A stretch of DNA of 64,000 bases. Origin: Hysterangium stoloniferum. Its lineage: Eukaryota; Basidiomycota; Agaricomycetes; Hysterangiales; Hysterangiaceae. This document shows, in pieces, positions 6,672 to 64,000 of the stretch. Within the stretch, counting starts at the first letter, position 1, and every line of letters begins with the position of its first letter. The position numbers were made by a program, and so were the translations under genes. Below the pieces are notes generated by a model. The model had not been told where the DNA came from, made no database searches, and saw nothing but the letters and a program-made list of their open reading frames with translations. Location of the stretch: the NCBI GenBank assembly GCA_015178975.1, contig WHVD01000071.1, positions 62,001-126,000 of the forward strand. Reading direction: 5' to 3'.

Positions 6672-6825
6672 TATTCATCACAAATGCACGGTCTTGGGAG
6701 GTTCTACCCCTGTGCGAGATAAGCAAGTATGTACGAGATTGCGAAAGGGCAAGGTAGGCCGGTAGCGATGGGCGATCCCAGCGTTCATAACTAGACACAC
6801 GTCAAGTGCGATTACGTCATCACTT

Positions 6826-7640
6826 TAGTCAAGTCGCCGCTGCACACCAACTTTGATGAGGTCGCATCAACATTTATCATACACATCGCGGTTATCTAGG
6901 ATTTGATGATTCCTGGGCCTGGACCATTATCGGTCTCTTCGAAATCACGGAAGCGATCTGCCACGTGCATCAACTATTTGTAGAGGAGCTCACGGCAATC
7001 AGAGGTTGTTGCATTCAATTCTGGTTACACCCGTGCGTCACGACCACATCATTTCATCTAGCCCACCCAAACCAAAATAGGCAATATCACCCCACAACGA
7101 CGTTCCTTTTATGAATATCCGATGCGGTTTCTTGTGTGTTGCATCCACCAAGATGCGTGGTTTCGAGATATTGCTGGATCTGTATTGAAGGTGTTAGTGG
7201 ACGGCATAAATTTGAATATAGCGTCATTGTCACGTCACATTGATTCGGAGATATCAGATTCACTGTATTGGAGTATGCGCTCCTTGAAAACCTTCTTCGA
7301 TGACAGCACACCTCCCACTGGCCACACCCGCCAGCCTAATATCGTTTTTTCGTTCATTGCGCCCATCATATGGTGCGTTCACAATATTTTACTTTCCAGC
7401 ACCGTCTTACATCTGCCTCCGAAACTTTCCTACCAGCTTCTGACGAACACGATTCCGAATTGGGTTCTCCTATCGTGTGGTGATGGCATAATCGCGTTCA
7501 CTCTGACGCTGATAGCTGGATTTTACGAGCCTGAATCCGCGTGTACCACAGTGTGCAGTCTCGATATCATCGCCACGCCCGTTTCTCTTCTTCCACATTG
7601 TGTCATAATTAAGGTATTGTTGAACGTTTGAAAAAGGCCC
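6826..7640 (+). pseudogene. Gene family A remnant
   Basis: The translation follows the protein of 62,706-64,000: HTNFDEVAS-like sequence near 6,845, an LTAIRGC-like stretch near 6,990, then CCIHQDAWFRDIAG near 7,140, SRHIDSEISDSLYW near 7,230 and LTLIAGF..PESACTTV near 7,510. The longest open piece is 7122-7631. The 5' exons are missing and the sequence leaves the alignment after about 7,630. Upstream it is joined to block X through the solo LTRs. The frame shifts several times, so it is non-functional. Confidence 0.7.
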
Positions 7641-14737: not shown

Positions 14738-15298
14738 GTGATCACTCCACTTCATCTGATTGCTTTAACGCTTCAATTCCCAATCTGTTGTACAAACGAT
14801 TGTCCTACCAGTCTCATTGTGCGGCACACGAGGCCAGGTCGGTCTCTCTTAACGTCTGGTGACGGAATAATGCAGTTGACTCTGAAACTGGTAGCTGGAC
14901 CTTCCGACCCCGAATCCGCGTGTACCACAGTGCACAAGCTCTACTCCATCGCCATTCTTGTTTCTCTCATTCAACACTGTGACACAATGCGCAGCTCAAT
15001 AAATGAACAATCCATCCGTTCCTGGCTCATGTGTCTTGATTTCACCGCGTGTTCCTTCCCCTGCGTTGTCGTCACACCTTCCACTGGTGTGTCAGTAGGG
15101 TGTAATTGGAACTCCATATACGTTTTGGAGAAAATGGTTGCCATGACAAAGGTCTTGTACCATCAATTGGACACAATTTCTATTCATTTCTCTTGGATAA
15201 TGCCAACACATCTCAACCAAACCAGGGGCAGTTCAATAGCGTTGCCCTTTCATCACTCACTTTGGAGCTGTATTTCTCAAATTTACACAGCTATATAG
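14738..15298 (+). pseudogene. Gene family A fragment (C-terminal part)
   Basis: The frame of 186 residues matches the C-terminal third of the 62.7-kb gene: LTLKLVAG.SDPESACTTV near 14,880, a QHCDTMRSS stretch near 14,980 and the TPSTGVSVG end near 15,080. It then reads through into sequence that other copies do not encode. The N-terminal two thirds are absent. It is more diverged than the copies at 35.4 and 52.0 kb, so probably an older duplicate. Confidence 0.6.
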
Positions 15299-15879
15299 TT
15301 TGAGCCAATGTCAGCCGATGATCAGCTGAGAAATTCGAATAATTCCCTGAATGACAATAATTTAAGACGAGAACATGAAGGATGGATTGAAGCATAAAAT
15401 CAGAGCTGCGATGGATGACCACCTGGTGGGACAGAAGATGGACTGTCATGGCCACCTTTGTGAAGCCCAAAAGGAACAGTGGACTGGCCAGCATCGAAGG
15501 GGCCCGCAAGGAAGCAGAAAAAGGAGACATGTAAGTATTACCAGAATGGTGATTCTGTAGGTACCAGACGAACTCCGCCTACGATCACGCTGCGGGTGGG
15601 TCACAATCATGGATCTCCACTGTAATCGTCGCATTGAAGAGCCATATCCACGAATCACTAGTGTGAGCCTGGGGCGAAACATTTCACTCAAAACAGAAAA
15701 TAACACGGCTAGTGGAAGCAAGTATTACCTGACATGGCATTATGTGTTCAATTGGAAATGCAGTAATGGAAGATATCCCATTACGTACCGCGATAAAATC
15801 GACTCTGAGAAGATAGCATAACGCAAGTAGTGTGACCTTTGCTACCGTATACAAAGCAAAAGCACCGAGAATCAATCAT
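15299..15879. other. Unassigned low-copy stretch
   Basis: There are frames of 60-90 codons on both strands, none with a recognisable domain or a partner in the window. I see no gene I can support. Confidence 0.3.
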
Positions 15880-16340
15880 TTAACACCATTGGGGCTCTTT
15901 TTTCACTTTGAAGTGGATATGTAGGTCTACAAAGATGTCGGAATCTAGAGTGTATTCAACATTGACGCTGAGCTATCCCTACTTCATTAAATCGACAGTC
16001 TCTTGGAGTATTCTTCCCAGTCTTGCATCTTGAGATAACCGACTTATGATTTACCCGTATATTGTCAGCTTGGCCATAAGCGAAGCTTTCTTTGCACTAT
16101 GAAGGACTTTCATTCCAATCCTTTCCAAACAGAGTCCACAGTAACACCCGGGGCTTTTTCCAACACTTGAAGCTCTCCCATGACTCCGTGAGATAATTCC
16201 CCAGTCCTCGACATGACTGTGATACGGGGTGACGTCGGACATCTTGTTGGCGGATATATTAACAAGGGTGGTGGGTCATGGTAGCTCGTTTCTCCTTGAG
16301 ACTGAAATGTGCCGCATGTGACATAGGTCACATAGAAACA
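15880..16340 (-). pseudogene. Gene family A, N-terminal part
   Basis: The region 16,095-15,880 reads KASLMAKLTIY, then a degraded exon end, then an intron starting GTAGGG (near 15,988) and ending TTTGTAG. This parallels the first exon and the 56-nt intron of the gene at 63.8-64.0 kb. Upstream on the same strand (16,331-16,110) is a stretch with GETSYHDPPP and MSRTGELSHG, which is also found at 37.7 and 54.4 kb. It therefore shows what lies upstream of the family A exon cut off at the window edge. The frame changes between the two stretches, so it is a remnant. Confidence 0.55.
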
Positions 16341-17580
16341 GCATTATACTGTACTCACTCACGCCTCAACCCAAATCTCTATATGATTTGCAGACAGTTG
16401 TATGTGCTGCTCGTCGCCAGATAATATGAATAATGGCCGGGTTCGTTACAACCCCATCGTTCTCGAAGCTTCTCCCTGGATATCTCTCTCATCCCGTCTT
16501 AATGATCTTGTCCCGTTCCTCTGAACTCAATACACCTGGGGAAAATAAGGGTAGTATCTCCTCAACGCCTTCAAGGTAGCTCTGAATTGTTTCCTCATCG
16601 TGATTCCCTAGAGTTGGCTCGTTGAAAGAAGACATTTGTGTGGGGCAGTCTTACTCACACTAGAAGGGGGTGCCGGGCTTTTATGGTGCAGTCAGTCGGA
16701 GTGTTCTACAGACTTTTGGCTATTATTACACAGGATTCACAGCATGACATCCCTGCCTTTGTAAACAAAAGCGCCTCACCTTCCTTGAACTATTTGGGGT
16801 GCAGTGGATTTTGTTACCTTACTGCTTCCTTGCGCCTTCCGCTGATGGTTCACAGCATCTAATAATAGTTCTGACAATTGTCACCCCATAAGGTAGTATT
16901 TAGCGGGTTATTGAGGATCAGAGGGGAAAGAAAAATGACTTGTCTGGTTTTGGAGACATGGCATTGCCATGAATTATATAAATGCAGTCCAGAGCTATGC
17001 TTACCCTGCTGCTTTCAGGTTGGTGTCGTCGACCTTAAACAATTTCTGGCGAGAGTCCACACTGCCTGTTTAATTTTATCAGCACTTTCAACGAGAAGGG
17101 CAGGGGAAGTGAGTCTAGTCGGGTTAATGGTAAGTGATATTATTTCTTCACTCTCGCCATATCAATCGGCTTGAATTTTGTGGAGTGTCTGAAGAAGACA
17201 GAGGAAGACCAGAGCTCTCAAGGTAAATTTCATTGGGCTACATAATTTGATCATTTGTCAGTCGGAGAATTAATAAACCACTCTGAGTCCATACCAACTT
17301 TTCAGCTGATCATGGGCTATTGGTATATCAAAATTGAGCGGAAGGTAAGACACTTGCCAAGGTAATGTATCATAATGTCATGATTGTGGGGATAATCTTC
17401 AGTGCTGTAGGAGGGCAATAGGAATATTCTTCCCATTCTCTTTTGGATAACTAATGGACAAGGATCTTTATTCAGAATGCGATCGGTGGCACTCTAAACA
17501 ATATAACTTTGGTATGATGCAAAAGGACCAGAATCCCTTCCAAAGACAATGGCAACGGTGGCCCAGTATCAGGCTGGTTC
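16341..17580. other. Unassigned low-copy stretch
   Basis: There are short frames (16638-16862, 16878-17174) without domain signatures and no repeat partner in the window. Nothing is supported as a gene. Confidence 0.3.
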
Positions 17581-18240
17581 AAAAACAGTCCAGGAACATT
17601 TGTTGCCTGTGAGATGTATTTGTAATCCCACAACATACCTCCTACAAGGTTAAAGGTTTCATCAACCCAGCGTTCATCAGGGACTCAGAACAGAGGTGTA
17701 ATAAGAATAACAAGTAAATAATATTGTATGCGCTCTGGGATTCCCTCAAACTACGCAGGTTAATGCAATGGTTAATCTTCCTTTAAAGCGAACTATAAAG
17801 GCAATGAGATCCTCCTCTTAGTTTGTTCCAAGTATGCCGGCGGTATCTCATTGAAAATCGTTTCCAATTATCGAGCAGGACGTTCACCAGATCAAACCGC
17901 ATTTTTCCAACTCTGATATGGAGTTCGAAGGAGATGCTTACCCATATATCATTGAAGTGTGTGGCCATCACCAAGAGGAAAGAGAGGCCGGGGAAAATTA
18001 AATGTTCAAGACACTTAATGGTGACCCGGTTGTTGATGCGTTGTGCATTGTGTCTTGACGTCTGGTTGTAATGAGAAAAACAAGAATTGGGACGGTATTG
18101 AGATCGTGAGCTGCGTTGCACCCGAATTCCGGGTCAGAAGCTCCAGATATTATTGGCTTCAGCGCAATGGCAATTAAGTTTGCCCCAACCGACAACTGCG
18201 GCCAATATGGACTCATTTGAGTCAGAACTAGATTGGTGTG
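17581..18240 (-). pseudogene. Gene family A fragment, diverged
   Basis: The stretch 18,216-18,000 reads IALKPIISGASDPEFGC followed by LNTVPILVFL, matching the LTLKLIAGSSEPESAC...SLDPIASLILL region of the 62.7-kb gene. The adjacent 17,600-17,960 is a diverged relative of 30,430-30,870, with a shared frame of a SFELHIRVGK type. Identity is lower than among other copies, pointing to an older lineage. Confidence 0.5.
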
Positions 18241-18479
18241 GTAATTTCATATGCAAATTTAAGACAATGCTGGACCACAGAAAATAGAGAATGTAGTGTA
18301 AAATGGAATCCATGAGCGAAGAAAAACATTCAGCTGGTTAATCAGCAGCGCATTGTTGTTGAGAAGTGAGTGAAATAAAAGCGACGCTATTGAGCTCCTC
18401 ATGGGTTGGTTGAGATGTTTCGGCATTATCCAGGAGGAACGAATAAGAAATGTGTCCGATTAAATGTGCAAGACGTTTG

Positions 18480-18810
18480 TCAGGCTAACCATGTTACTCC
18501 AACACTGATGTGGGGATCTAATTAGAACCCTAACGACACACGAGTGCAAGGTGTGGTGACCAAAAGGAGAGAAACGAGAATAGAGATGGTATCAAGCTGC
18601 GCAATGTGGTACATACGGGCTCGGAAGTTCCAGCTATCAGCTGCAGAGTCAAATCGATTATTCCTTCGCCATTCGCCAGATCCCAATGTGGAATGGTGTG
18701 TGTCAGAATCAGACTGGTTAGAATCTTTCATAGGCGGATATAAGACGGTGCTGTAAGGTAAAATATTGTGAGAACGGAGAGAAGGTTCAGAGCAGTGTTG
18801 CACACGTCAT
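18480..18810 (-). pseudogene. Gene family A fragment
   Basis: The minus frame 18803-18522 carries the PPMK motif, the DSAADSWNFRAR region parallel to LKLIAG.SEPES copies, a LDTISILVSLLL stretch and the final TRVSLGF. It corresponds to the last third of the gene. It lies next to the previous fragment in the same orientation, so two remnants are in tandem here. Confidence 0.5.
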
Positions 18811-28490: not shown

Positions 28491-28540
28491 TGCTTGGATT
28501 CGGTTGTAGTGCAGAGTAAACCTGGGGTGGTAAGGAACAA

Positions 28541-29829: not shown

Positions 29830-30324
29830 GCGACTACGTCATCACTTTGCTGCACACCAACTTGGATGAGTTGCATCAACATTTATCATACACATCGCCG
29901 GTTATCTAGGATTTGATGATTCCTGGGCCTGGACCTCTCTTCGATATCACAGAAGTGATCTACCAGGTGCGTCAACTATCTGGAGAGGAGCTCACGGCGA
30001 TCAGAGGTTGTTGCATTGAATTCTGGTTGCAACCGTGCGTCGCGACATCATATCATTTCCTCCTGCCCACCCAAACCAAAACAGACAATATCACCCACAA
30101 CGACGTTCCTTTTATGAATATCCCATGCGGGTTCTTGTGTGTTGCATCCACCAAGATGCACGGTGGTTTCTGGATCTGTATTGATGGATTTAGTGGACGA
30201 CGTGAATTTTAATGTAGCGTCATTGTCACGTCACATTGATTCGGAGATATCAGATTCACTGTATTGGAGTATGCGCTCCTTGCAAACCTTCTTCGATGAC
30301 AACACACTTCTCAATATTTACTAG
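29830..30324 (+). pseudogene. Gene family A fragment
   Basis: It contains VRQLSGEELTAIRGC near 29,970, FWLQPCVA near 30,020 and SRHIDSEISDSLYWSMRSL near 30,225, matching the central part of the 62.7-kb gene. A region corresponding to the CIHQDAWFRDIAG stretch is shortened. It ends near 30,310 at a junction with sequence also found inverted at 55,780-55,870. Confidence 0.65.
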
Positions 30325-32570: not shown

Positions 32571-32729
32571 TGTATTTAACAAATGTATGGGGACAACAGC
32601 AGAACTCTCGGCGATGATACAAAGTGACTATATGCGTTCTTAAATTGGCTCAAATCAAGCTTTATAACATCTGCAACCGCGGCTGCAAAGTGGGTTGAAT
32701 AAAGGGCGACCCAATTGGGCTCCTCTTGC

Positions 32730-33900
32730 TTTAATTGAGATGTGTCGCGTTATCGAAGAGAAGTGATCTGGAAGTCTGTCCAATCGATGGTGCAGTACCC
32801 TTGTCAGGGCAACCGTGTTCCCCCAACACTCATATCGGTGGCTAATTAGACCCTACCGACACCGTGTCGCGATGACACAAAGGAAAGAACGCACGGTGAA
32901 ATCAAAACGCTCAATTTGGGAACTGATGTATCCCTCATTGGTCGAGCCGCGCATTATGTCACAATGTGGAAGGAGTAAAATGAGAATGGCAATGGTATCG
33001 AGCTGCGCGCTGTGGTGAACGTGACTTCGGGCTCGGAAGATCCATCTATAATCTTCAGAGTCAACGCGATTATGTGCTCCCCACACAACAGGAGATCCTA
33101 ATTTGGAATTGTGTGTGTCAGAATCAGGCTGGTAGGGAAGTTTCATAGGAGGATGTAAGACGGTGGTGAAAGGGGAAATATTGTGAACGTACCTTGAGAT
33201 GGGCCCAATTACGGAAGAAACGACATTCAACTCTTTGATGTGATCCGTGAGAAGGGTGCGGTTAGAAGGTTATCAAGGAGCGGATCCTCCAATACGTGAG
33301 TTTGATATTTCCGAAGAAATGTGACATGACAATGACGCTATATTCATTTCGTAGGCAGATGTAAGACGGTGGTGGAAGGTAAAACATTGTGAACGCACCA
33401 TCCGATGGGCGCAATGAACGAAGAAACCACATTCAGCTGGCACATGTGGCCAATGAGAAGTGTGCTGTCATCGAAGAAGGTTCGCAAGGAGCCAATACTC
33501 CAATACAGTGAATCTGATATCTCCGAATCAATGTGACGTGACAATGGCGCTATATTCAAATTCGTGGCAACACACAAGAAACCGCATGGGATATTCATAA
33601 AAGGAAGGTCGGTGTGGGTGATATTGTCTGTTTTGGTTTGGGTGAGCAGGAGGAAATGATGTGATGACGCGACGCACGGTTGCAACCAGAATTCAATGCA
33701 ACAACCTCTGATCGCCGTGAGCTCCTCTTACAGGTAGTTGACGCACGTGGCAGATCGCTTCCGTGATATCGAAGAGACCGATAATGGTCCAGGCCCAGGA
33801 AATCCTAGATAACCGGCGATGTATATGATAAATGTTGATGCGACCTCATCAAATTTGGTGTGGAGTGGCGGCTTGACTAAAAGATTGTAGTGATGACGTA
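32730..33900 (-). pseudogene. Gene family A, nearly full-length remnant
   Basis: It follows the 62.7-kb gene end to end from the HTNF-like start (about 33,870) to the final VIATRCR/TPST region (about 32,860). The in-frame intron is retained with a GTACGT donor near 33,190 and a CAG acceptor near 33,130. Separate open pieces lie at 33,685-33,344 and 33,230-32,853. The frame is broken between them and near the start. The first exon (present at 63.86-64.0 kb) is missing; block X begins instead at about 33,950. Confidence 0.7.
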
Positions 33901-33959
33901 ATCGGCCGATGCCATAGACCCTACGACTCCGCCAGTACAGGACGGAGGGTATGTTTTAC

Positions 33960-35404: not shown

Positions 35405-35767
35405 ATGGCTTTCCTCGCTTCGGCCCCGACCTGCCGCGACAAACTCATTCCGACCAGCGTGATTCTAGCGCACACTATTCCAAATTCGGATGTCCTGTTG
35501 TGTGGTGAGCGCATAATCCTGTTGAATCTGAAGCTTATAGCTGGATCTTCCGACCCCGAATCTGCGTGTACCACAGTGTGCAGGCTCGATACCATCCCCA
35601 TTCTCATTTTTCTCCTTCCACATTGTGCCTCAATGCCCGGCTCGACCAATGTCAAATACATCAGTTACCTCCTTGAGAGTTTGTATTTTCCGGTGCGTTC
35701 CTTCCTTTGTGTCATCGCGACGCCTTCCACTTGTATGTCGGTAGGGTCTAATAAGCCGCCCATATGA
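35405..35767 (+). pseudogene. Gene family A, C-terminal fragment
   Basis: The 120-residue frame holds LNLKLIAGSSDPESACTTV, the HCASMPGSTN stretch and the TPSTCMSVGS end, so it covers the final third of the gene. It begins directly after an acceptor-like tract (tttttttgcag, near 35,370). The same arrangement is at 51,975. Confidence 0.65.
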
Positions 35768-35939
35768 GTGTTGGGGCAACACGGGTGCCGTGACAAAGCT
35801 CTTTGCACCATCGATTGGACACGCTTCCTAATAGTTCTGCTTCGATAATTCCTACACACATCAACCAAAAAAGGAGGATCCAAGTTGTGTCGCCTTGTAT
35901 TCAACCCACTTTGCGCCTGGGGTTTCAGATTGTATAAAG

Positions 35940-37449: not shown

Positions 37450-38060
37450 AATTTACCAAACTTCTCCTAGCTGTCATGTGTGCACTTCGAAGTAGACAAT
37501 ATGGCGGATGAGAGACATATTCTGGGCGAAGCTTGAAGGACGATGGGACTGTTCCGAACCCGGGCATAATTTTGTTCCCGGGCCCTCGACGACGACCTGG
37601 ACATACCAGTCTAAAGAAGATGTCGAAATTTGGGCGGGGAATGGGTGCATAGAATGAACTGTCCTTATAGTATACACTGCTGACAAACTCAATGTTTCAT
37701 GGCCAAGGGGAGACAAATTACCACGACCCACCAACTATTATCCGATGCCAGGGGGGTCTACCAAAGCCACATCCTACTGCAGCACATATCGCCGTCATTC
37801 CGGGGACTGGGGAATGGTCTCACAGCATGGTATTACACGTTCCTCCGTAAGAATTTAACTCTGGAAAGACTAAGCACAGTAATTCACGGGAGCATTGATT
37901 TAATGGGATTGGGATTTCTCAGTGTCAATATTTTAATACATCGAAATACTCACGTCTCCGTACACCCACGGAAGCCCTCAAATTCGGGAGCGATCGTTAT
38001 TATATTACACCTTTTCCGGTGGTGTTAACCCTATATGCGGCCACATAGTCGAAACTTCGT
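37450..38060 (+). pseudogene. Gene family A, N-terminal region remnant
   Basis: Pieces in changing frames read TVPNPGIILFPGPSTTTW (about 37,550), YQSKEDVEIWAGNG (about 37,610) and a GDKLPRPT-like segment. They match 54,190-54,800 and the GETSYHDPP region at 16.1-16.3 kb. The 16-kb locus shows that this stretch lies directly upstream of the family A exons; here it has been separated from them. Confidence 0.45.
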
Positions 38061-40010: not shown

Positions 40011-40044
40011 ACCGAATCCAAAAATCATAACTGCTACAACGACA

Positions 40045-43899: not shown

Positions 43900-46304
43900 A
43901 TATTCGTTACAGGTACTTCATATAATACAGTAGATTCTCACCGTGTGTCGACTGAGATATCATATTAATTTCAAGCTCATCCCACCACCACATCATCAAC
44001 CATCTTGCCGACAACAGGATCACGAACTGATCAAGAAGGGTGTAGGTGCGACCGCTGTCCGTAGGGTGCAAATGCTACCCCGCTACCACAAGATGTTATA
44101 CATGATGCATACGATCCGTTCGACGAACAGCTAGCCTCTACGGAGTCTATGTTGCCCTTTCAATTACCCTCTTTCGGGACTGATTCTATCTCTCTCTCTT
44201 TTTGTCATGATTTAATATATAAAATATACGCTAAAGACTCTATCATCCAGTTGCACATGGTCAAAAAGGGAGGTCCGAGCCGATAGGACCTTCGTGAGGG
44301 GGTGGACAGGGAGTGAGGACATGCGTCTGAAGCATGCCATTACAGACACCGCTAGCGCTCCCTACGCTCTCACAAAAGAAAATATATTTGCGAGGTGAGT
44401 ACATAGTTAATTGCTTAGATTGATGGCTGATAGTGATGCTGCACATTTTTAGCAGTATCAACGGAGTCCTTAAATCATGCAAAACATACCCTCCGGATTC
44501 CCAACGGTTTCATAGTCCCGTACGTCACATGTGGGTGCGTGTTTCTTTCGCTTATGATTCTTCCTCAACTGATCTAATCTCCAGCCGCTATCTGTGACTA
44601 ATATATTACCCCCAGCGTATGAAACCCCCTATCTGTCCGCATCCTCGTTTCCAAGCGCGGCTATGCAAAGGTTGACAAGCAACGTGTCGTATCCCCTTCG
44701 ATAACGCCAGGATATAGGCTGATCTCGGAAAACACCATATCCTCTCCATCGAGGATCTCTACTCATACCTGAGATCTTTGCAGTTGGCCCGGTCTCAAAC
44801 AGTTATTTTCTTTATCACGTCTTGTTCTGTTAAGTGTTAACAACATATCCTACCTCTCACTAGACCTCAAACTTCCTCTGGCCCCTTTGAACCATCCCGC
44901 TGATGGTGGCCATGTAGGCGACTACCCAATGCCAACAAGCCGGTCAGGCAGATAAACTACTAAATAACCATGATCAACTATTACAAATTTTCAATCCCCG
45001 ATGACCTCCGTCTACCTCTGGGGTTATATGAATCTGTTTGATCAAGGTTGGGAGCTCGAGGCAATATACGTTTTTGTGCACATTTTTAACATTGGAGGAG
45101 GGATTTAAACAAAGGCTCCAACGATGATTTCTAGACTTGCACATCAGAAATTTGGAGATCTACGACCATTGTAGATGGTTCAGGTATGTAGATTGCCTAG
45201 AATCCTCTGTAAAGCAATGGATTATGGTTAGTCTATGCCACTGATTTGCGCTATGTGGAATTACAATAAACTTGAAGGGAAACAACTTGGATGCGAGCTT
45301 CCTTTGATTTACTTACGTGGCAAATCTGTCGCATCATTTTGGTTTCCAGGGGAAGCATGACGTTATAATGGAAAGCGACCATGGGGAAATCAAAATGAGC
45401 TGCAAGTAAATATGAGAGTTCCAGTCGATCACAGCCTACGCACAAGAGCGTGCACAGGAATATCCTCGATGACTTTTGTTATTATTCCTTTCTTCTTCGT
45501 AAGCCATTTTAAATGTGATGTATTCCTCTTCGATCCTCCTCTTCTTCTCCCTTTCATTCTCGGCTATCTCCTGGAATAAGTCATCGTTATCCAACAATAT
45601 CTCACAATATGTACCTCTTCAAGCCTCTTCTGATCCTTCCTTTCATTCTCGGCTATCTTCTCGGATAAGTCATCGATTATCCAACAGTGTATTACAATAT
45701 GTACCTCCTCGAGCCTCTTTTTTTCCTCCCTGAGCCTCTCGGTCTCTTTCCTTCTCTCTTCGGAATTCTTTATTGCTTCCTGGATACATGATGAGATGAG
45801 TAATTGATTATTCGAGACCGTTCCCCAATGCTCACCACCACTACAGATTTGTGCTCGATGTATTGCCGAATTCTTGCGTTTCCCGCCACCCACGCGTTTT
45901 CAAATGGTTGTAACATGTCCTCAGGCTTGCGGCCTTGTGTGCCCATGGGGATCGTTTGGCAATAAGGCAACATAGTAAGTTACCAAGTACCCAACTTCCC
46001 CTTCGAAGGTTTGACAACAGATCTGACATGTGTGTGCGATTGAATGGCACGATAAGCACATACGCGAACCAATGGCATTTGTTAGGTATTATGGTGTAGT
46101 CGACGGCTTGAAGGCGGTCGACTTTGACCTAAGTAACAAGCTTTGATAGAGTGAATGGCTCTCTAATACTCCTCAGATCCAATGATTCGATCATGTCAAA
46201 CTCCGGCAATGGCTCAAGGAAGGCAGTAGTACCGTCAGAACAAAATTGGAACTCGTCTGAGATGTCCTGGGAAGATGACAAGATGGAAATGTCGACGGAT
46301 ATAT
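43900..46304 (+). repeat. Segmental duplication block, copy 2
   Basis: It is collinear with 8,560-11,090. The match stops exactly at ggatatat (46,297-46,304), where the Copia sequence begins. The continuation seen at 11,091 is not found after the element. Confidence 0.75.
45480..46270 (-). pseudogene. Gene family E, copy 2 (clearest exon structure)
   Basis: Reading leftwards: an upstream exon after a CCCAG acceptor (46,266) with DEFQFCSDGTTAFLEPLPEF; an exon MGTQGRKPEDMLQPFENAW (from about 45,945) ending at a GTGAGC donor; a 75-nt exon EAIKNSEERRKETERL..KKRLEE (45,779-45,705); intron 45,704-45,660 (45 nt, GTACAT...CCGAG); a 45-nt exon KIAENERKDQKRLEE (45,659-45,615); intron 45,614-45,571 (44 nt, GTACAT...TCCAG); and a further exon EIAENEREKKRRIEE. 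The exon plus intron unit is thus tandemly duplicated. The product would be a soluble coiled coil of unknown role. The upstream exons do not connect cleanly in phase, so I call it a probable pseudogene. Confidence 0.5.
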
Positions 46305-49300
46305 AAGGGATATAAAGAAAGAACGGCTGCTAAGGCTGACAAAGCTGATATGTCTGCCAAGGTATCAGAGGAGAAGAAACCAGAGAGTGCTGGAAATGCA
46401 AGTGATTCTATCCCTGACTCTACTGATCCATCTTGTGCTCTCCTTGTCAATGCTAGTTCTGACTGGACTGCTGATACAGGTGCTTCTTCACACATGACTC
46501 CCCATCGTCATTGGTTTTCAAGTTATACACCATTTCAAACACCTATCCAAGTTGCAAATGGACAAATAGTTATGTCTGCAGGGATAGGAGCAGTGTGGTT
46601 CAAGTCTAAAGGGAATGGAAATGTAATAATAGAGTTTGAAAAGGTTCTCCATGTTCCCCATCTCACAAGTAACCTCCTTTCCATCTTGTATTTGACAAAG
46701 AAAAAGAATTTCCATGTCTCTATCTTTTGTTCCACCTTGTCTTTCTATTTGAGAAAGGTCTTGTGTTTCACTGCCACAGTCAATGAACATAACCAGGCCT
46801 ATTTGGATGGAATGATGGTACCTATAACGGATTATGCTGGTCTTGTTACAACCTATCCCTTGGACTCCACACTTTGGCATCGTTGCTTTAATCATCTCAA
46901 TCATGCTGATATCCAGAAGCTCCTCAAAGGTGATTTGGTTGGTGGGATAAAGATTGACTCTCACACATCTCCTGATCCTATTTGTGAACCTTGTTTGGCT
47001 GGAAAACAGAACAGAGTAATTAATAAAATGGCAACAACACACTATACTAAACCACTTGCACTCATTCACAGTGATGTTCATGGTCCCTTGCCTACACAAA
47101 CTGTGGAAGGGTTTCGCTACTGTATCACTTTCATTGATGATGCCTCACACTATGCTTCGATTTCATTACTCAAAAATAAGAGTGATGCCTTTCAGGCATT
47201 TAAGCAATATAAGGCTAAAGTGGAGAACTTGCTTGGTCAGAAGATCAATATATTCAGAGATGATAAGGGTGGAGAATATATGACTAAGGAGTTTGATACC
47301 TTCCTTTCCACTGCTGGCATCAGCCGGCAGCATACTGTGCAGAATGAACCACATCAGAATGGGGTTGCTGAACACTTTAACAGAACATTGGAAGAAGGGG
47401 CTATTTCAATTATGGCTGAATCCCACCTCCCTCCCTCATTCTGGGGACATGCTGTCATTGCCATTACTCATGTGTGCAACTGCTCACCTACCACTGCTCT
47501 TAAGCATTCTGTGCCTTATACTGTCTGGCATAGTAGGAAACCAGAAGTATCAGATCTTAGGGTATTTGGCTGTACTGCTTATGTGCATGTACAGAAGGAC
47601 CAACATATTGGACTTAGCTCTCACACACAGAAATGTGTCTTTATTTGATATCCTCCAGATTATAAGGGTTAGATGTTTTACAATCCCTTAACTAAGAAGA
47701 CTATTATCAGTAATAATGCTGTCTTTGATGAGAGAGTCTTCCCAGGCTTGTCTATACCTGCCATACCTTCTACTCCTACTGCTCCTGATGTTCTTCCTGA
47801 TAATCCACAATTTGTTGATTTGTTTATTCCTGGACCCTCTAGGTCTATTCAGGTGGGAGCCCAGCCTAATCAGGTGGGAGCTCCACAGGAACCAAATCAG
47901 GTGGGAGATGGTCAGAATAATGCTTTGCCTCCTGGTCCTAGTTCCAACTCTGATTCTAACTCTGAACATTCTGAACATTCACCGAGTCCTCCTCCTCAAC
48001 CACGTCGCAATTCACCCAGAAACAGAGTTCCTCCTAAGCGTTTCCAGCAAGCTGACCCTGCTAACATCCACAACTATAGAGAATCTACTCCTGTAGTTGA
48101 GTCCAGTGATGAGGCAGAGGATTTTCCACTACATTCTCCTCCTTCAGTTGAGTCTGAGGAAGAAGCCCTAGCTGCCAGTGAGGGAGATCTTTACATTGGT
48201 GTGGATGAAGCCTTTGAGTTTGCCTACAAGGCCAGTACTCATGATGATGCACCCAGAACTCTCAAAGAGGCCTTGCAAAGTCCTGATGCTGACAAGTGGT
48301 ATGACGCTGCATATGCAGAAATGCAATCCCTGCTTGAAAATGGCACCTTTCGCCTTGCTAAACTACCTCAGGGTCATAACGTTATTGGCTCTCATTGGGT
48401 GTTTGTGATCAAGCATAAGAAGGATGGGTCAATTGACAAGTTCAAAGCTCGTCTTGTTGCAAAAGGCTATGCACAGCGACCAGGGTTTGACTTCACTGAT
48501 ACCTTTGCTCCTACTGCCCAATGGGCCACTTTGTGTGCTGTCCTAGCATTGGCTGCACTGGAGGACATGGAACTTGAGAGTGTAGATATCTCCTCTGCAT
48601 TCTTGAATGGTGAACTTGAAGAGGAAGTATACTTGCAGCAGCCTGAAGGTTTTCACCAAGGTGCTCATGATGAGTTCTTACTTCTTCTTAAAGGACTATA
48701 TGGTTTATGCCAGTCACCTCATATCTGGAATAAGAAGTCGAATGCTGTCCTGCTCAGTTTGGGGTTCAAAAAAGTGTTATGTGATCATAGCATTTGGGTC
48801 TTCCAAAAGGGTGATGTCAAAGTCATTATACCAGTATTTGTAGATGATATGACTATTGCATCTAAATCCAAGGAGGCTATCACGAAGCTCAAAGATGATC
48901 TAAAGAGCCACTTCAAATTGCATGATCTTGGTCCTACTTCTTACTTGTTAGGTGTTGGCATTGAAAGAGATAGGACAAAGCATATTATTACTCTATCACA
49001 GCATCAATACATCTTGGACATGTTACAGCGTTATGGTCTTACTGACTGCAATCCCATTGGTACACCTATGATACCTAACTCAAAATTGAGTAAAGACTAG
49101 GCTCCGGTGTCTCTGGAAGAGATTGCATACATGAAGGACATTTCATACATCCATGCTGTTGGTTCTCTTATGTATTTGGCTGTTGCCACTCGTCCAGACA
49201 TTGCCTATACTGTTGGAGTATTAGCCAGATTCAATCACAATCCAGGAAAGGCTCACTGGCTAGCAGTACAACATCTCTTTCGATATCTCAAAGGCACCCT

Positions 49301-51724: not shown

Positions 51725-54700
51725 AAGGCCGTCAGAGTGATCCCACTTCGGACCACAATGGGTTTGGTGAAACCGAGGGGCTTCATCATCGTTGTAGAGT
51801 AATGATTTTATTCAAGTGCTTGGATTCAGTGGCTTGGGGTGCAACAGGCATCCGCGCAAGGGCTTACTTGCAATTCCTCACTGCTGAAGTATGGGAATTT
51901 TCAGAATTAACACCCAGTGAATTGTCTATTATCCTAAGTTAGAGACTAACACCACTATACACCTATACATTTGTTTGCAGGATGCCAAGACCGGGTTACT
52001 AACTCCGATTTCGTATGGCTTTCCTTCGGCCCCGACCTGCCGTGACAAACTCCTTCCAACCAGCCTGATTCTGGTGCACAATATTCCAAATTCTGATGTC
52101 CTGCTGTGTGGTGAGCGCATAATCGCTTTGAATATGAAGGTGATAGGGGGGCCTTCCGACCCCGAATCCGCGTGTACCACAGTGCGCAGGCTTGACACCA
52201 TCCCCATTCTCATTTTTCTCCTTCCACATTGTGCCCCAATGCACGGCTGGACCAATGACAAATACCTCAGTTACCACCTTGAGCGTTTGGATTTTGTGTC
52301 GGTAGGGTCTAATCAGCTGCCCATATGAGTGTTGGGGCAACACGGTTCCCCTGACAAAGGTCTTGCACCATCGATTGGAAACACTTCCTAATAATTTCTC
52401 TTCGATAATTCCGACACATCTCAACCATGACAGGAGGATCCGAATTGTGTCGCCCTGTATTCAACCCACTTTGCAGCCGGGGATTCAGATTGTATAAAGA
52501 TATATGATTTGAGCCGACGTAAGAAAGGATATAGTCACTTTGTATTATTGCCGGGAGTTCTGAGGCTATCCCCTACATTTTCTGAATACATGCTAGTCAT
52601 TCCTGTACTAACCCCATGATCCTAGAACCGACGACCTTCACACCGTGCGAGCGGCCAATTCCTTATACAGATTCTACTCCATTGTTAACTTGACAAGAAA
52701 GCTGCCATAGGCCGCGAAATATAAGAGCGCATATCGTCACCTTTTACTGTCGCCGCAAGCTTTGCAGGGTCCACGCGTTAATGTCATACATCCGTGTAAT
52801 ACCCTTGTGGGCACCAGTGGCTAGACTGACATCCTATTTATAAAGACAATCATTTCAAACAGAATGCAGATTAGAGAGTTGCATTAGGCTACATAATTTG
52901 ACTCAATTTATAGGCGAAGATAGTCACTTGTAATGATCACTGCGATGTTCTCTAGACTGGTGGTGAATATATTGCGAGCACTGACCGTGGCTGGAGTCAC
53001 ATCAGATTTACTAGCGATGACAATTTCAATGGAATATCCCACTAGGGCATGTCAAAACAGGACGTGCCACATTTATTCTTGTGTTATTTCTTTGGGAGAA
53101 CAGGAAGCCGGGCCAAGCCATCGGACAAGACGATGCTCAAAATACCACTTCTCATCAGTCATGAAATTTCACATTTTAGCTCTTTGTTCTGATTAAATCA
53201 TCGCCCCATGAACCACCCAAACCATGGGAAATCTCGTTTATGTTGTGTCTCAATATTTCAGCCGTTCAGATCACACGATCCGCGAGGACAATTTACTTTA
53301 CTCGCTAAGCGGGCATTCCCCTCCTGCTCCCATTTCCATTGACTAGAAATCATTCCACGAATTGTCATGTTTGCTTTATTTCATTTGGAGTCTGAGACGA
53401 CAGACAATATACGACTTAACCGTTACCCAAATATGAAGGTTTAGATGGGTTTACTAATACAACCTGATGCCTCCGCATCACTAAGGATATTCAAGTTCGA
53501 CCCTCAGCCTTCTCGATAAAATTTACTCTGAAATCCTCTTGAAATTTCCAGCAGACTTGTCAACTCTAATGATCTTCCTTGTCTTGCTCAGACCTTCCAG
53601 AACATGCAAGTCGCCTGATATAGAAAGGGCACACGATGAATTCAGTCATTGGGGCAATAAATAATTATTTAAACTGGGTGTCTTGTCGCAACAATCTTGA
53701 TGGAATTTAATACGGAGGAGCTCAAGGGCAGCCGATGAGGACCAATGAAGATGGCATCTCTGTATTCATACTTATGATCCATGCCGACATAACAGCCCGA
53801 TTGACTTCGATTCTAGCATTCATGACATCTAGAGTAGTCGCAGTATGCAGTGATAACTCATAGACACATTATTATCTCCTGCGCGTGTACGACGAAGTCA
53901 TGAATGCTACGAAATTAGTGTAATAAATTCAGAAGAGTATCTTGGGGGGTGGAATATATAATGACCATTAGTGGCCATTTAAAAATGAAAGGAATGACAT
54001 GCGGAATATCCTCTTCAAGGACAGTCCAAAAATTATATCTAGACATTAACTCTACATCTGCCTGGGCCATAAAGGTGCAGCATGCCCTCCTGCTGAGAAT
54101 GTACAGAGAAACTGGAGGACGTTGAAATATAACCTCAAGAACTCTAAGCTGCTATATCATGCGGTGACAATTCACAAAACTACTCCTAGCTGTCATGTGT
54201 GCACTTCGAAGTAGACGATCTAGCGAATGAGAGAGATATTCTCGGCGAAGCTTCAAGGATGATGGGACTGTGCCAAACCCGGGCACAATTTTGTTCCCGG
54301 GCCCTCAACGATGACGGACATACCAGTCTAAAGAAGATGTCGAGATTTGGGGCAGGGAATGGGTGCATAGAATGAATGGTCCTTATAGTATACACTGCTG
54401 ACAAACTCGATGTTTCATGGTAAGGGAGAGACAAATTACCACGACCCACCGACCATTGTCCGATTCCAGGGAGGTTTACCAAAGCCACATCCTACCCGAG
54501 GACATATTGCCGTCATGCCGCGGACTGGGGAATGGTCTCACAGCATGGTATTACACGTTCCTCCACTAAAATATAACTCTGGAAAGACTAAGCACAGTAA
54601 TTCAAGGGAGCATTGATTTAATGTGGTTGGGATTTCTCAGTGTCAGTACTTTAATACATCGAAATACTCACGTCTTCGTACATCCACGAACTCCCTCAAA

Positions 54701-54760
54701 TTTGGGAGCGACCGTGATTATATTACGTCTTTTCCGGGGTGTTGACCCTATATGCGGCCA
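51725..54760 (+). repeat. Direct segmental duplication of 35,108-38,060
   Basis: It has the same order: half fold-back with MKPLGFTKPIVV on minus (about 51,790-51,725), a shared segment with the acceptor tttgtttgcag, a gene A fragment, inverted block R and a family A N-terminal remnant. It is cut on the left inside the fold-back, next to the Gypsy LTR. Confidence 0.8.
51975..52328 (+). pseudogene. Gene family A, C-terminal fragment
   Basis: It is a sister of 35,405-35,767: DKLLPTSLILVHNIPN, SDPESACTTVRRLDTIPIL and HCAPMHGWTN. The VRSFLCV..TPST part is shortened. Residue changes from the sister copy are few, so the block duplicated late. Confidence 0.65.
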
Positions 54761-57586: not shown

Positions 57587-58138
57587 AGCAGAGAAATGGA
57601 TAAAAAGAAAGAAGTAGAAATATCCAAAGAAAGAAGAAGAAGAAGGATAACTGGAAAAGAAAGAATTATGCCTGGCCGCTGCCACTTCATCCGCCGCTGT
57701 TCCTACTATTCGCCCGCTGCCTCCCCTCTTGCCCCTGCTTTCGCTTAGATCCCTGATTAAACGGTTTGCTTCTCTTTCCGCCGTCGGTTAGGTTGTGGTG
57801 GGGGCGCAGCCTGAGGCAATGGTTCCATGCGAGCAGGTAGAGGTCCGCCAAGGTGTCTTTGCCGAACGTTGCGGTGAGTCGTCGGGCATGCGGAACTGGT
57901 TTTACAATCTTTTTCCACCTCAGTTCAGGCGTAAGTGCTGCCGCACTGAGGCATTCGCCACTTGCCTAGATGGTAACAGGTAAGCATAATTGCCAAGATT
58001 AATGACACGAAATCGTACTTGTCTAACCGTGTTGGCGGTTCTCCTCTGTTATTGAAGGCCTTGTCTCGCCTCGCCTTTCTCTTTCCCTGGTAATGGGGCT
58101 GAGGTGTTAGCGATTTATGTTTGAAACGCTTTATCCTG

Positions 58139-60410
58139 CTAAGGAGTCAATTTTAGTTGGTGTAAGAAATATAGCCGACGGGACTCACCTGCAACCCACA
58201 GACGTTCCTGCCCCGGAGGACGGATTGTTTTAGACATGCAAACTATAACCATTCCCTTTATGCCGGCTCTGGTTCTTAAGGTTGTGCATTGATGCAGGCG
58301 ACCCGTCGGATTCGGGTTCGTTCCGGTAAGGACGCCTGGGATGTCCATCGGTGGGAGACCTTGTGCTTGGTGTTACTTTAGGAGCTGCGACCGCTAGGTT
58401 GGTCGTCAGTTTTGTGTTTCATGTGGTATTAAAATAAGTCACAACTAACGAGGTATTTCCTGATATTTGAAGTCAGGGAAGTCAGGAGGTGAAGACCTTG
58501 GCCTCGGCACAGGATCCTCATAAGCTCGTCCGGCAAGCGCACCGTGGCCCGTACCGTCGTGTGAGGGCAGATCCTAAATTTAATTGAAGTTAATGATGTA
58601 TGAGAGAAAAGAGTGGTGAAAAGTACTGCGTACTAGATGATGAGCCGCCCCAGATGCCCCTATACGACGTGTCTGCATAGACTTCTATATTTGCACAAAA
58701 TATCAATTTAATAAATGACTCATTAGGATAAAGGAGTCACTACCTTGTCCGTATCCATGATTATTGATCCCTTCACTGTCCATCGCGGCGGGGGTAGCGC
58801 TAGCGTGCGGGGGTCGAGTTGGCAAGACACAGCATGGTGAACGAATGGGTAAACCGGGAGCAACGCTGTCACAGGCATATCTGCAATTATCGCGAATTTT
58901 GATGAGTTTTAAAAGATCCGCGCGAAGGGATGAAGTGTACGAACCAAATGCTGGAGACAGGTCTGTCTGCGTGTTCGTACTGGCGAACACTTTCTGATCA
59001 GTGGCTTCATCGTCGTGGTGGATGAGGGAAGATTCTGTGAATAGTAGGATATTTAAAGTAATATATTATGCGCTGGGCGAATGATCCCGTGAACGGCGAT
59101 CCATCCAGCATGAGAGGGTCATACTCTCTAAGATCGACCCCCTTACCCTGTCTTCCCATGAGATACGTGGGGTATACTCCGGCTCTTCATCGGCGCCTTT
59201 GACGTTACCGTCATCCACATCCACAATATCATGATCGGCAGTGAACTTGGGGCGGATGGTGGTATTCGCCTTGGAAACGATGTGGGGATGGAACATCCCA
59301 GCATTGTGTCCTGCTCAAATTAAGGCAAGTCAGTATATGATGACATTAATTACACGACGTCGGACAAACCTTTCACAATGCGCTGGGCGAATGATCCCGT
59401 GAACAGCGATCCATCCAGCATGAGGGGTCCATACTCTCTAATGTCGACTCCCTTTCCCTTGTCTTCCCACGAGATACGTGGGGTAGGGTCGGGATCCGCG
59501 TGTGTGCCGTCGACGTTACCGTCATCCACAGCGGGTGGGTGATCAGCCGGGTCGATGCCCTCAACTTTACCGTCATCTACCGCCGGTGCGCGATCAGCCG
59601 CGCGCTCAGGTCTGACGTGCGCGTTTTCAAGACGAGAGTGTATGAAGTACACGATGGCGCCGAACAGCGTGAATACCAGAGCGATTTATATCCAGGCAAT
59701 ACACGCATCGCCGATCACTTCCGCATGTCTAGAAAACCATTGTCAAGTATCTCATTATTTATCGCTCCATATAACACTGACCGTTGCTTGAGCCCACGAC
59801 AGATCGTCTCCTCGATGTGTATACGCAGCGCGTGTGGCAGGTGCGCGACGCGGCTGGTTCCGCCTTTGAATGGCTTGCTCATCAACACCGCCACAAGGCT
59901 GCCTTTTGGGAATGGATGCAATCTAACGGGAACGCAACCGGTAAGTGACAACATCACAAGCAACAAATAATAGCCACCACCACTCACACATCATTGTAGC
60001 AAACCGAATATAAGGAGCGTTTCATATCACTCACTGGAAGCAAACCGAACAATCTTGCAACTGCTCCAGGTTCAACTCGATGTTTGCCAATAGCTTGAAT
60101 CCTGTGACGGCAGCCGCGAAGGGACTAAAACCTTGGTTGAAATGCGGGAGCTGGTAGCCAAGAAATATGGATATATCCGTCAGTATATCCACCTTGAACT
60201 GCGTATCCGAGACGCAGTGATGAAGGATGACTGATAATATTCTTTGCGAGGCGGTGTCTACATTGGTGCTGTGGCAGTAATATGACTATGGTTCAATGTG
60301 CTAAAGAAGGGCAGATACACGTACTAACACAGGAACATTGATAGGTGCATTACGGCCGTCAGAGTGATCCTGCTCCGGACCACAATAGGTTTGGTGAAAC
60401 CGAGGGGCTT
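58139..60410 (-). pseudogene. Gene family B, copy 3
   Basis: It has the same order as the 26-28.5-kb copy and direct orientation to it. First exon near 60,410-60,325 (GTACGT donor), exon 2 with LARLFG-type end near 60,060, exon 3 (LHPFPKGSLVAVLMSKPFKG, 59,935-59,790), membrane exon near 59,690, acidic exon 59,652-59,350 (DPADHPPAVDDG, then RISWEDKGKGV and GSLFTGSFAQRI). A second tandem copy of the last exon (59,230-59,070) is joined by a deletion at 59,060-59,068 to late-exon sequence. One base is lost in the exon 2 end near 60,060. It is not functional as it stands. Confidence 0.6.
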
Positions 60411-60479
60411 CATCGTCGTTGTAGAAGTGATGATTTTATTCTCAAGTGATTGGATTCGGTGGTAGTGAAGAGTAAACAT

Positions 60480-61575
60480 GGGGTGGTAAGGAACAAGCCT
60501 ATACCAATGGGCAATATTAGAGCGCCAAAAATATCAATCGATAGCATTAGGAACCATGCATCCAACCTTAGAATATCAAGAAATGCTGGGCAGTTGGTAT
60601 AGATATTTATTAAGGCGATGAATAGTGATTTTCAAGTGTCCCGCACAGCCTGACGTGTTTTCTTAAGATAGATCAAGCCAAAGTACAAATCGGGAAACTA
60701 TTTTCTTTCATTTTGACATCAGCGGAATGACAATAATTTTGAACTATTTATGGCCAAAAATAAGAGTATTTATCTTTATTGTTTTAGATGTAATGTAACC
60801 TTATCGGCCGATACCCTACACAACCTCTATTTGGCAAAAGAGGCAGAAAGACCAGAAACGAACCATCGATGTGTGATCGGGATCGCCTTGGAAGGATGCT
60901 TCTCGATGGCGCTCAATAATGTCAATGCACAAACTACACTGGTTCAATCACGAGAAAGACCAGACGTTTGAGAAACGAAGCATCGATGTGTGATCGGGAT
61001 CGCCTGTTTTAAGCAGTGGAAGGATGCTTCTTGATGGCGCTCAATCTGACATGGGTGCCTTTGGGACCCATGATAGGCAAGTCGCTAATGTTCATGTCGG
61101 TCATGGGAGGCCGTGGGCTGTGGTATGTGACTCGTGTATAGTATTTGAACCGATTTTCGGACGTCTCGGGGATCAAATTCTTTATTTGCCCCTGCTTTTG
61201 AATTGTAGATTTAATATGGAGACATCGTCTCTATTTTAGCTTGGCTTCTTTCTCCACAACCAGTAGTCACACTGGTCACAATCACACGAGGTGTCGAGCA
61301 CCCATCAAATGGTGGAGGATCGCCAGGAGGGCTGAAACAGCCAAAATACATGGCTCAAGTGTGGAGGCTGTATAATGACGAGAAACATATATTGGTGTTT
61401 ATATCTGGGGAAGCCGAGTTAAATTCGTTGACTACCTACCCTCCTTCTTGACTGGCATAGTCTTAGGGTCTATGGCATCAGTAGTGCATTGACTTGGTAT
61501 ACATTAAACCAGTGACACGACATCAGGTGGGCCTAAAGATTGCACAGGGGTGAATGGTAGCATGGTGGGGGTGAT
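60480..61575 (+). repeat. Block 'P' spacer, third copy, truncated
   Basis: It is collinear with 28,540-29,518 and stops at about 61,575 within the catggtggggg landmark, where block R begins. It contains an internal partial duplication of about 70 bp (the segments with gatcgggatcgcct near 60,877 and 60,992). Confidence 0.7.
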
Positions 61576-61599: not shown

Positions 61600-62700
61600 G
61601 CAACAATCAGAAACAAGGACGAATGTGATTTCCGATGGGGCCGGTCATCGTGGCTATTTTTCATGGCTTATTTCATTGGAACTACGAGCTACTTTTCTCT
61701 CATCCAATGTGAAAAGTCATGACTGATGAGAAGTGCAGGTATTTTGATCATCGTGTTGTCCAATGGCTTGGCCCGTTCCTGTTCTCGCAAGGAAACAACA
61801 CAAGAATAAAGGTGGCACGGCCTCTTTTGACAACCCGTCCTAGTGGTATACGATTGAAATTTTTTATCACTAGTAAATCCGATATGACTACAGCTACGGT
61901 CAGTGCTCGCAATATATTCAAAACCAGTCTAGAGAACCTCGCAGCGATCATTACAAGTGACTATATTCGCCTTTGAATCGAGTCAAATTATGTAGCTTCA
62001 TTCAACTCTCAAATACACGTTCTGTTTGAAATCATTGTCTTTTATAAATCGGATGACAGTCTAGACACTGGTGGTGTCCGCAAGTGTATTCAACGGATGT
62101 ATGGCATAAACGCGAGGAACGTTCTAAGCTCGCGGCGAGGGTGAAAAGCGACTGTTTGCGCTCTTATACGTCGCGACCCATGGCAGCTTTGCTTTCAAGT
62201 ATTCAATGAAGTAGAATTAGCTTCAATAGTGCCACCCACAGTGTGAAGGACGTCGGTTCTAGGATCATGGATCCTGTCGATTCAACACTGGCGTGAAGGG
62301 ACCATGAGCGTGAAGGAGACATGCATCGAAATGGAGATGGGGGAGGCTTTTTTCTGACCTTCTACAATATCTTATTTAAATCACATGTCGTTCTTTCGGA
62401 GGTTAGTCCAAGCATGACTAGTCCGCTCAAATGTATTTAACACATGTATGGGGACAACAGCAGAACTCCCAGAGATGATACAAAGTGACTATATGCGCTC
62501 TTATATCGGCTCAAATCATATATCTTTATAACATCTGCAACCCCGGCTGCAAAGTGGGTTGAATACAGGGCGACACAATTGGGCTCCTCCTGATTTGGCT
62601 GAGATGTGTCGCATTATCGAAGAGAAATGAGTAGGAAGGGCATCCAATCGATGGTGCAGTACCTTCGTCAGGGCAGCCGTGCTTCCCCAACACTCATATC
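61600..62700 (+). repeat. Block 'R', direct copy
   Basis: It is collinear with 31,800-32,730 and leads directly into gene A, as at 32.7 kb. It contains the empty site of the 2041 LTR (cgcagcgatcattac, near 61,942). No gene is supported. Confidence 0.75.
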
Positions 62701-62705
62701 GGCGT

Positions 62706-64000
62706 CTAATTAAACCCTACCGACACACGAGTGGAAGGTGTCGCGACGACACAAAGGAAGGAACGCACGGTGAAATCCACACACTCAAGGCGGGAACTGA
62801 TGTATTCGTCATTGGTCGAGCCGCGCATTATGTCACAATGTGGAAGGAGTAAAATGAGACTGGCGATGGGATCGAGGCTGCGCACGGTGGTACACGCGGA
62901 TTCGGGCTCGGAAGATCCAGCTATCAGCTTCAGAGTCAACGCGATTATCTGCTCCCCACACCACAGGAGATCCAAATTTGGAATGGTGTGCGTCAGAATC
63001 AGGCTGTAGGAAAATTTCATAGGCGGATGTAAGACAGTGCTGGAAGGTCTAATATTTTGAACGTACCTTACGATGGGCCCAATGAACGAAGAAACGACAT
63101 TCAGCTGGTTGATGTGATCGGAGAGAAGCGTGCTGTCGTCGAAGAAGGCTTTCAAGGAGTAAATACAAATTAGGGAAGGTGGTGTCCTCAAACCCACATG
63201 ACGTGAGAATGAGGCTATATGCATATTTGTGTCGTGCACTAACACCTTCAACACAGCTCCAGCAATATCTCGAAACCATGCATCTTGGTGGATGCAACAC
63301 ACAAGAAGGCGGATAGGGTATCTATAAGACGGATATGCTCGCCGATGACTTTCTCTGTGATGGTTTTTGGTGGGTTGGATGAAATGATGTGATATCGCGA
63401 CGCACGGTTGTAACCAGAATTCAATGCACCCTCTGATCGCCGTGAGCTCCTCTACAGATAGTTGACGCACGTGGCAGATCGCTTCCACGATATAAGCAAG
63501 GCCGAACACGGGAAAGGGATGATCAAATAATTTTCGATAGTTGGCAATAAATGTTGATGCAACCTCTTCAAAGTTGGTGTGCAGCGGTGACTTGACTAAA
63601 ACGTTGTAAAGTGATGACGTAATCGCAGGTGACGCGTCTCTATCTGACCAATAGACACCGGGACACCATACGAAGGCCTCAGCCAAAGATGCCAAAAGCC
63701 AATGGGCAGTGTGACGTTTCCCACTCCGCGGTAAATACACCGGAAAATTGTCTAAAACTATCATCGCTCTTCTCCGAATGTGCCTTGGATATGTGGGTCT
63801 GCGAAAACGTCGGTATTTCGAGTGTATTCAAGATTGACGTTGCGTTATCCCTACCTCAATAGATCCACACTCTCTTGAACTAATCTTCCCAGTCTTGCAG
63901 GCGTGAGATGCTGGTGTGGAAACTTTCTAAAGGCCCCGTCGTCTTGATGCAATCGACTCGTGATTTGCTGGTATATTGTCAGCTTCGCGATCAGTGAAGC
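62706..64000 (-). CDS. Gene family A, best copy, partial at the window edge
   Basis: Unknown family; I recognise no named domain. The exon 64,000-63,855 is open to the edge (LTIYQQITSRLHQDDGAF, then LVQESVDLL). The 56-nt intron 63,854-63,799 (GTAGGG...TCGCAG) keeps the frame through an AG/A arginine codon. The next exon reads RRAMIVLDNFPVYLPRSG, FVWCPGVYW, SSLYNVLVKSPLHTNFEEV, LSVEELTAIRGC, CCIHQDAWFRDIAG, SRHVG and LTLKLIAGSSEPESACTTV, ending VSVGFN. A 63-nt in-frame GT-AG segment (63,066-63,004) is probably a second intron, since a GTACGT or GTGCGT start recurs in other copies. About 412 codons are visible (391 if spliced). There is no signal peptide or clear membrane segment in the visible part. 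More N-terminal sequence is expected from the 16-kb remnant. The C-terminus may continue by splicing at the GTAGGG near 62,719. Confidence 0.55.

Follow-up and report, generated by a model that had tools for sequence, protein, structure and literature searches.

A five-exon gene at the window edge and its relatives

The window analysed here is a 64,000-nt stretch (C524:62001-126000) of a 111-Mb, 554-contig genome assembly, and a complete five-exon gene encoding 544 amino acids after splicing crosses its right end on the minus strand. The stop codon of this edge copy lies at 62706 and its ATG at coordinate 64567 (C524:126567), 567 nt outside the window. Exon 1 (64283-64567) lies beyond the window on C524, and exon 2 starts at 64225 and continues into the window (63855..64000; locus L041). 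Intron 2 (63799..63854; 56 nt, GTAGGG..TCGCAG) is followed by exon 3 (63406..63798), which holds many positively selected codons, by intron 3 (63355..63405; 51 nt, GTGCGT..TCACAG), by exon 4 (63067..63354), by intron 4 (63004..63066; 63 nt, GTACGT..CTACAG), whose position is common to the other intact models, and by exon 5 (62706..63003, including the stop codon), all on the minus strand. Because introns 3 and 4 are in frame and stop-free, the edge copy resembles a single 373-aa open reading frame, composed of exon 3, the 51-nt intron, exon 4, the 63-nt intron and exon 5. The motif strings and the open frame that the first-pass annotation reported here are both real, but the frame is not a single exon: it is three exons with two in-frame introns, both bearing GT..AG ends, and the copy called nearly open is fully open. 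The next best genome match to the 373-aa frame is 78% identical.

When 24 intact family proteins are used as queries, tblastn returns 418 HSPs in the window, whereas reversed or shuffled versions of the same proteins return none at E 1e-3, which bears out the earlier claim that the same protein occurs in pieces across this DNA. By blastn, the window holds 11 family loci, including the edge copy (62578-64000, minus strand). The others are degenerate. On the plus strand lie copies comprising exons 3-5 (6791..7609), exon 5 (14793..15242), exons 3-4 (29849..30313), exon 5 (35440..35881), exons 1-2 (37501..37987), exon 5 (52046..52445) and exons 1-2 (54227..54705); on the minus strand lie exons 1-2 (15810..16701), pieces covering the end of exon 4 and exon 5 (18067..18772), and exons 3-5 (32714..33905). 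Eight of the nine other places listed previously are recovered; the ninth, at 17.6 kb, has no match by tblastn or blastn, and the copies at 37501..37987 and 54227..54705 were absent from that list. The pairs at 35.4/37.5 kb and 52.0/54.2 kb each consist of the tail of one copy followed by the head of a second one with the same orientation. Frameshifts in other copies were considered and ruled out, as the tblastn splits at residues 155 and 275 correspond to short introns in the alignment.

Several further features share the window. A copia-type retrotransposon polyprotein occupies two open frames at 46230-49100, with an RVT_2 domain in the second frame (47673-49097, E 1.6e-64). A large inverted duplication in pieces (12352-14328 / 19836-22125) is 90-100% complementary, with one 528-nt arm 100% identical, and carries an F-box-like ORF whose match is weak (E 0.0055) and below cut-off. 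A block of ~3 kb occurs three times at ~90% identity (25589-28721, 40021-42709, inverted, and 57853-60678) and includes an ORF without a Pfam match at 28031-28576, with a counterpart at 39954-40478. At 1970-2550 and 13-645 lie a minisatellite with a ten-base period and a repetitive ORF of the EEEWKEK type, each open in more than one frame.

Copy number, recombination and spread

The family extends far beyond the window, and the previous figure of about ten remnants understates it. A 25-mer from exon 2 occurs, with up to 3 mismatches, at 604 places in the genome and one from exon 5 at 531, while both 25-mers read backwards, as a control, occur nowhere in the same genome. By "several hundred" we mean copies or pieces in one genome, and 604 is a count of exon-2 signatures, not of intact genes. 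Among the 100 exact exon-2 matches listed out of the 604 places, 26 cluster in the first 403 kb of contig C257, some of them in same-strand runs spaced 5.5-6.2 kb apart (for example 130596/136624/142467 and 147218/153410/159444/164959).

Aligning twenty loci picked for open frames (L021-L040) reveals four short introns, with the ATG and the stop codon conserved; the measure used to pick them, open_frame_aa, ignores introns and served only for this choice, not as a measure of intactness. Seventeen of them yield intact models of 537-578 aa, 14 of which are non-redundant (L029, L034 and L035 are near-identical to others and are left out of the counts); of the other three, L023 and L024 are broken, and L040, a divergent copy, has no model. 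Of the 20 loci chosen for their similarity to the window copy (L001-L020), half are intact, namely L001 (the window copy, modelled as L041), L004-L009 and L017-L019, where "intact" includes models that keep intron 3 or begin as much as 17 nt downstream. The ends of L007 and L018 differ by a few residues from those of the other intact models. Together, the open-frame set (14) and the similarity set (10) give 24 distinct intact copies, and the modelled genes have five exons and 537-578 aa, with one intron made coding in a subfamily. The edge copy is thus the only continuous one within the window, as first described, but the genome has 23 other distinct intact modelled copies. None of the seven distinct uncut flank neighbours with a score of at least 700 is intact (a count that omits two more, cut off at the edge of the locus), and neither of the further loci L042 and L043 is.

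In ten of the 20 similarity-ranked loci (L002-L005, L007-L009, L011, L016 and L018) the acceptor of intron 3 is altered and 48 nt are read through in frame. Six of these ten are intact (L004, L005, L007-L009 and L018), and in a whole subfamily the former intron 3 appears to have turned into coding sequence. Other copies are near-identical to one another: divergence among L033, L034 and L035, which sit on three contigs, is <1% over 7-10 kb, and three pieces of L028/L029 are 98.9-99.7% identical. Either very recent duplication or duplication in the assembly may explain them. The same two explanations apply to contig C316, whose left part matches C63/C547 and whose right part matches C257, at ~99%.

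The part shared among copies consists of the gene, usually with 350-540 bp on its upstream side and at least 650 bp on its downstream side; some pairs share less flank, as little as 64 and 106 bp. Across 16 loci we find no fixed termini common to the copies; the points at which homology ends vary, most of them being specific to one copy. Breaks near -540 and -450 from the ATG turn up in several of the comparisons, and on our reading, which is not a proven one, these would be breaks in the partner copy. The coding sequences are mosaics. Four-gamete incompatibility of close sites falls below permutation in clade X (0.194 vs 0.337), in clade Y (0.352 vs 0.445) and in all 23 copies (0.286 vs 0.365); as a homoplasy test for recombination, this gives p 0.003, the minimum of the test, in each of the three sets. 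Because the copies recombine and lack fixed ends, we read their spread as probable segmental duplication; a classical transposon was rejected for want of common ends in the loci compared. The earlier suggestion that the protein travels with the blocks finds support here: the surroundings of the copies are repeated, fixed ends are missing and each copy tends to have break points of its own.

Diversifying selection in the C-terminal part

Over the whole protein, pairwise NG86 dN/dS has a median of 0.72 (range 0.59-1.18; 91 pairs among 14 copies), and the maximum-likelihood omega under M0 is 0.94 (23 copies). The first-pass annotation had named a ratio near 1, together with no expression, for every copy as grounds for giving up its reading; the whole-protein values do come close to 1, but they are an average of some 38-40% constrained sites, half neutral sites and 10-11% positively selected sites and not plain neutrality. 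We fitted site models with a home-made implementation, keeping 537 of 609 alignment columns (those with <80% occupancy were excluded) and 23 copies (L019, on a long branch, was excluded). M2a is favoured over M1a with a 2dlnL of 342 in a run stopped at its limit and of 345 on convergence from two starts. The converged model places 37.9% of sites at omega 0.16, 50.9% at 1 and 11.2% at 3.8, and 37 sites have a posterior >0.9 in it, against 38 in the run stopped at its limit.

This signal is unevenly distributed along a protein whose N-terminal part is conserved and whose C-terminal part (exons 3-5) is diversified, with strong diversifying selection on about 10% of its codons. With a separate tree for each segment, 2dlnL is 4.8 (p 0.09) for residues 1-110 and 11.7 for residues 111-218 (p 0.003, but inside the range of the recombination null); it reaches 63-85 for the exon-3 halves, exon 4 and exon 5. 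Clade X alone gives 79 and clade Y alone 231. Null simulations with recombination but no positive selection (a new tree every 60 codons, n=14) give 2dlnL of 5-32, above the nominal 5.99 in 12 of 14 runs. Since recombination alone inflates the site test, chi-square p-values are not taken at face value here; the inflation is nonetheless far smaller than the observed signal. Strong diversifying selection in the C-terminal half supports the earlier proposal that the family is under diversification.

The selected sites are partly the same in two separate clades. When the 80 most variable sites of one clade are scored in the other, pN/pS is 1.30 (CI 1.02-1.70) and 1.35 (1.04-1.87), compared with 0.65-0.68 for sites outside the top 80, and the two top-80 sets overlap at 35 sites where 11.9 are expected. 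The top 30 and top 50 sites of clade X give ratios above 1 in clade Y (1.59 and 1.64); in the reverse direction, from clade Y to clade X, the ratios are 1.19 for the top 30 and 1.09 for the top 50, with confidence intervals that include 1. Per-site pN is correlated between the clades (rho 0.44), pS weakly so (0.13). Of the 16 sites that have a posterior above 0.9 in clade X, only six recur among the 29 such sites of clade Y. In exon 3, alignment columns 330-360 (14 copies) show a pS of 0.043 against 0.098-0.344 in other 30-column windows, over few synonymous sites.

Among 15 copies (105 pairs), 98% of coding-sequence indels are multiples of 3, against 21-32% in the flanks, a contrast that is partly built in, as the set was chosen for intactness. 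Divergence in these 15 copies rises from introns (0.097-0.147) to coding sequence (0.154) to flanks (0.204 and 0.215), and the low intron values count against the reading proposed below. At flank-like indel rates, the neutral probability that the frame of the window copy survives its terminal branch is ~1e-6, and across the 24 copies it ranges from 0 to 0.016; with 24 of hundreds of copies sampled, terminal branches may shorten under denser sampling.

A putative recognition repertoire and competing explanations

Residues C63, H68, C71 and H80 are invariant in all 24 intact copies and form a C-x4-H-x2-C-x8-H set, which, at a guess, may bind zinc. One spliced protein and six aligned members match no Pfam family above cut-off; NACHT/NB-ARC, WD, ANK, TPR, PPR, zinc-finger, Puf, transposase, integrase, RT and helicase domains are all without a Pfam match, and the description of the protein as non-transposon stands, with no match to a known transposon protein. 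Searches of the PDB find no relative (best E 1.3 and, by profile, 0.21), and AF2 gives a mean pLDDT of 37 for the window ORF aligned with window remnants and of 37 for exon 5 alone. The periodicity of variable sites is weak (p 0.038, 0.008 and 0.030 at 3.0, 3.4 and 3.6 residues, among 8 periods tested) and points to a C-terminal part that might form a helical binding surface. A regular 48-aa solenoid repeat was rejected despite even-looking clusters (block-shuffle P 0.14, cluster-placement P 0.51), and hhalign of segments detects no internal repeats, the lone high score (R1-R2) coming from overlapping segments. Pneumocystis Msg-type variant surface antigens are secreted or surface proteins with a signal peptide; the N-termini of this family read MST/MSA... 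and are polar, with no hydrophobic leader visible by eye. The gene family looks undescribed, as no description of it was found in the open-access literature, judged by titles and the beginnings of abstracts.

By analogy, the most likely reading is an intracellular recognition family with a conserved N-terminal module and a diversified binding half, since a clustered, recombining family of hundreds with a conserved front and a diversifying back has the look of a repertoire. The N-terminal part would be a putative zinc-binding effector or adaptor module, and the C-terminal part a putative helical binding surface on which an arms race would re-shape the exposed residues. Such a family would serve as a repertoire for recognition inside the cell, and segmental birth-and-death together with gene conversion would maintain it. 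We observe diversifying residues directly; that they serve recognition, and recognition a response, we infer. We give about even odds to this reading as a whole, in which selection maintains the intact edge copy as one gene of a hyper-expanded fungal family of this kind. The first-pass interpretation, taken as a whole, is partly supported.

Fungal NLRs are the nearest analogue. According to PMC4986451 and PMC10197012, they form large, lineage-variable intracellular repertoires in basidiomycetes, with a positively selected C-terminal sensor and exchange between copies; the record count, given in the latter, is 602, in Fibularhizoctonia. The family shares with NLRs the large repertoire, the selected C-terminal half and the exchange between copies, but it differs in having no NACHT/NB-ARC and no WD, ANK or TPR match and in its length of ~550 aa. 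Because the defining nucleotide-binding domain is absent, the family may work like an NLR but would not be one.

A selfish or mobile gene, either cargo or machinery of an undescribed self-copying element or of composite blocks, would diversify through conflict with host silencing. The copy number in hundreds, the many decayed copies, the near-identical copies on different contigs (98.9-99.7%), the block-like surroundings with a copia element and the recurrence of some break positions (near -540 and -450) would suit such an origin. Like copia and other transposons, the family is repeated and dispersed; it differs from them in lacking a transposase, integrase or other Pfam domain, and in having no shared termini, with breaks that differ copy by copy. 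The 24 sampled intact copies sit on long separate branches, not near a few masters. A viral origin was likewise rejected, as one scan of viral contigs gave 42 pattern matches and no relative. We consider a selfish gene unlikely.

Somewhat less probable still is a genome-defence family in which the variable half reads transposon DNA or RNA and the N-terminal module recruits silencing. Plant RFL-PPR and mammalian KRAB zinc-finger genes are clustered, evolve by birth-and-death and have diversifying sites in repeated modules. The present family shares the clustering, the birth-and-death and the diversifying sites, with hundreds of copies, in the window amid transposon sequence, and a conserved C/H module beside variable sites; it differs in that no Pfam family matches, PPR, zinc-finger and Puf included, and in that no internal repeat of the kind such codes need is detected.

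Killer or meiotic-drive genes such as wtf and Spok are multi-copy, change rapidly, undergo gene conversion and include many pseudogenes. A driver family, in which drivers outrun their suppressors by changing rapidly and by gene conversion, would account for the recombination between copies, the mixture of intact and dead genes and the diversifying selection, but wtf and Spok differ in gene structure and copy number, the modelled copies here show one gene form, and their number is far above that of known drivers; we regard this as improbable. That the family has no function, its intact copies being chance survivors of a decaying repeat and its selection signal an artefact of recombination or alignment, is very improbable: the whole-protein omega near 1 (0.94) and the inflation of the site test in recombining copies would fit, but the expected survival of ~1e-6 for the window gene, the indel phase (in part a result of having chosen intact copies), a recombination null of at most 32 against an observed 342-345 and the cross-clade agreement of variable sites argue against it.

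Returning to the recognition reading, a broader version of it is possible, and we put it forward tentatively, at somewhat under an even chance. It would describe an unrecognised fungal repertoire without a nucleotide-binding domain, of up to several hundred genes, pairing a conserved C/H module with a diversifying sensor half and evolving by segmental birth-and-death and gene conversion. Its role would be to recognise self and non-self, viruses or transposons, alongside NLRs, HET-domain genes and gasdermins. The family falls outside these three, which are the characterised families listed in PMC10197012, a 2023 review. If it is expressed and many of the 604 places are functional, its size would rank with the largest fungal NLR repertoire given there (602). 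Such genes may drop out of annotations as repeats. The list of selected residues, together with the intact copies, makes the recognition idea directly testable.

Genome-wide, the NACHT model has 38 matches, none on C388, C257, C367, C524 or C157, and it also matches in 11 of 14 control genomes; one match, on C522, lies ~18 kb from a sequence distantly related to the family. Hydrophobin matches and short GT-AG introns are in keeping with a filamentous fungus, probably of the mushroom type; hydrophobin has 18 matches in this genome, compared with matches in 0 of the 14 control genomes.
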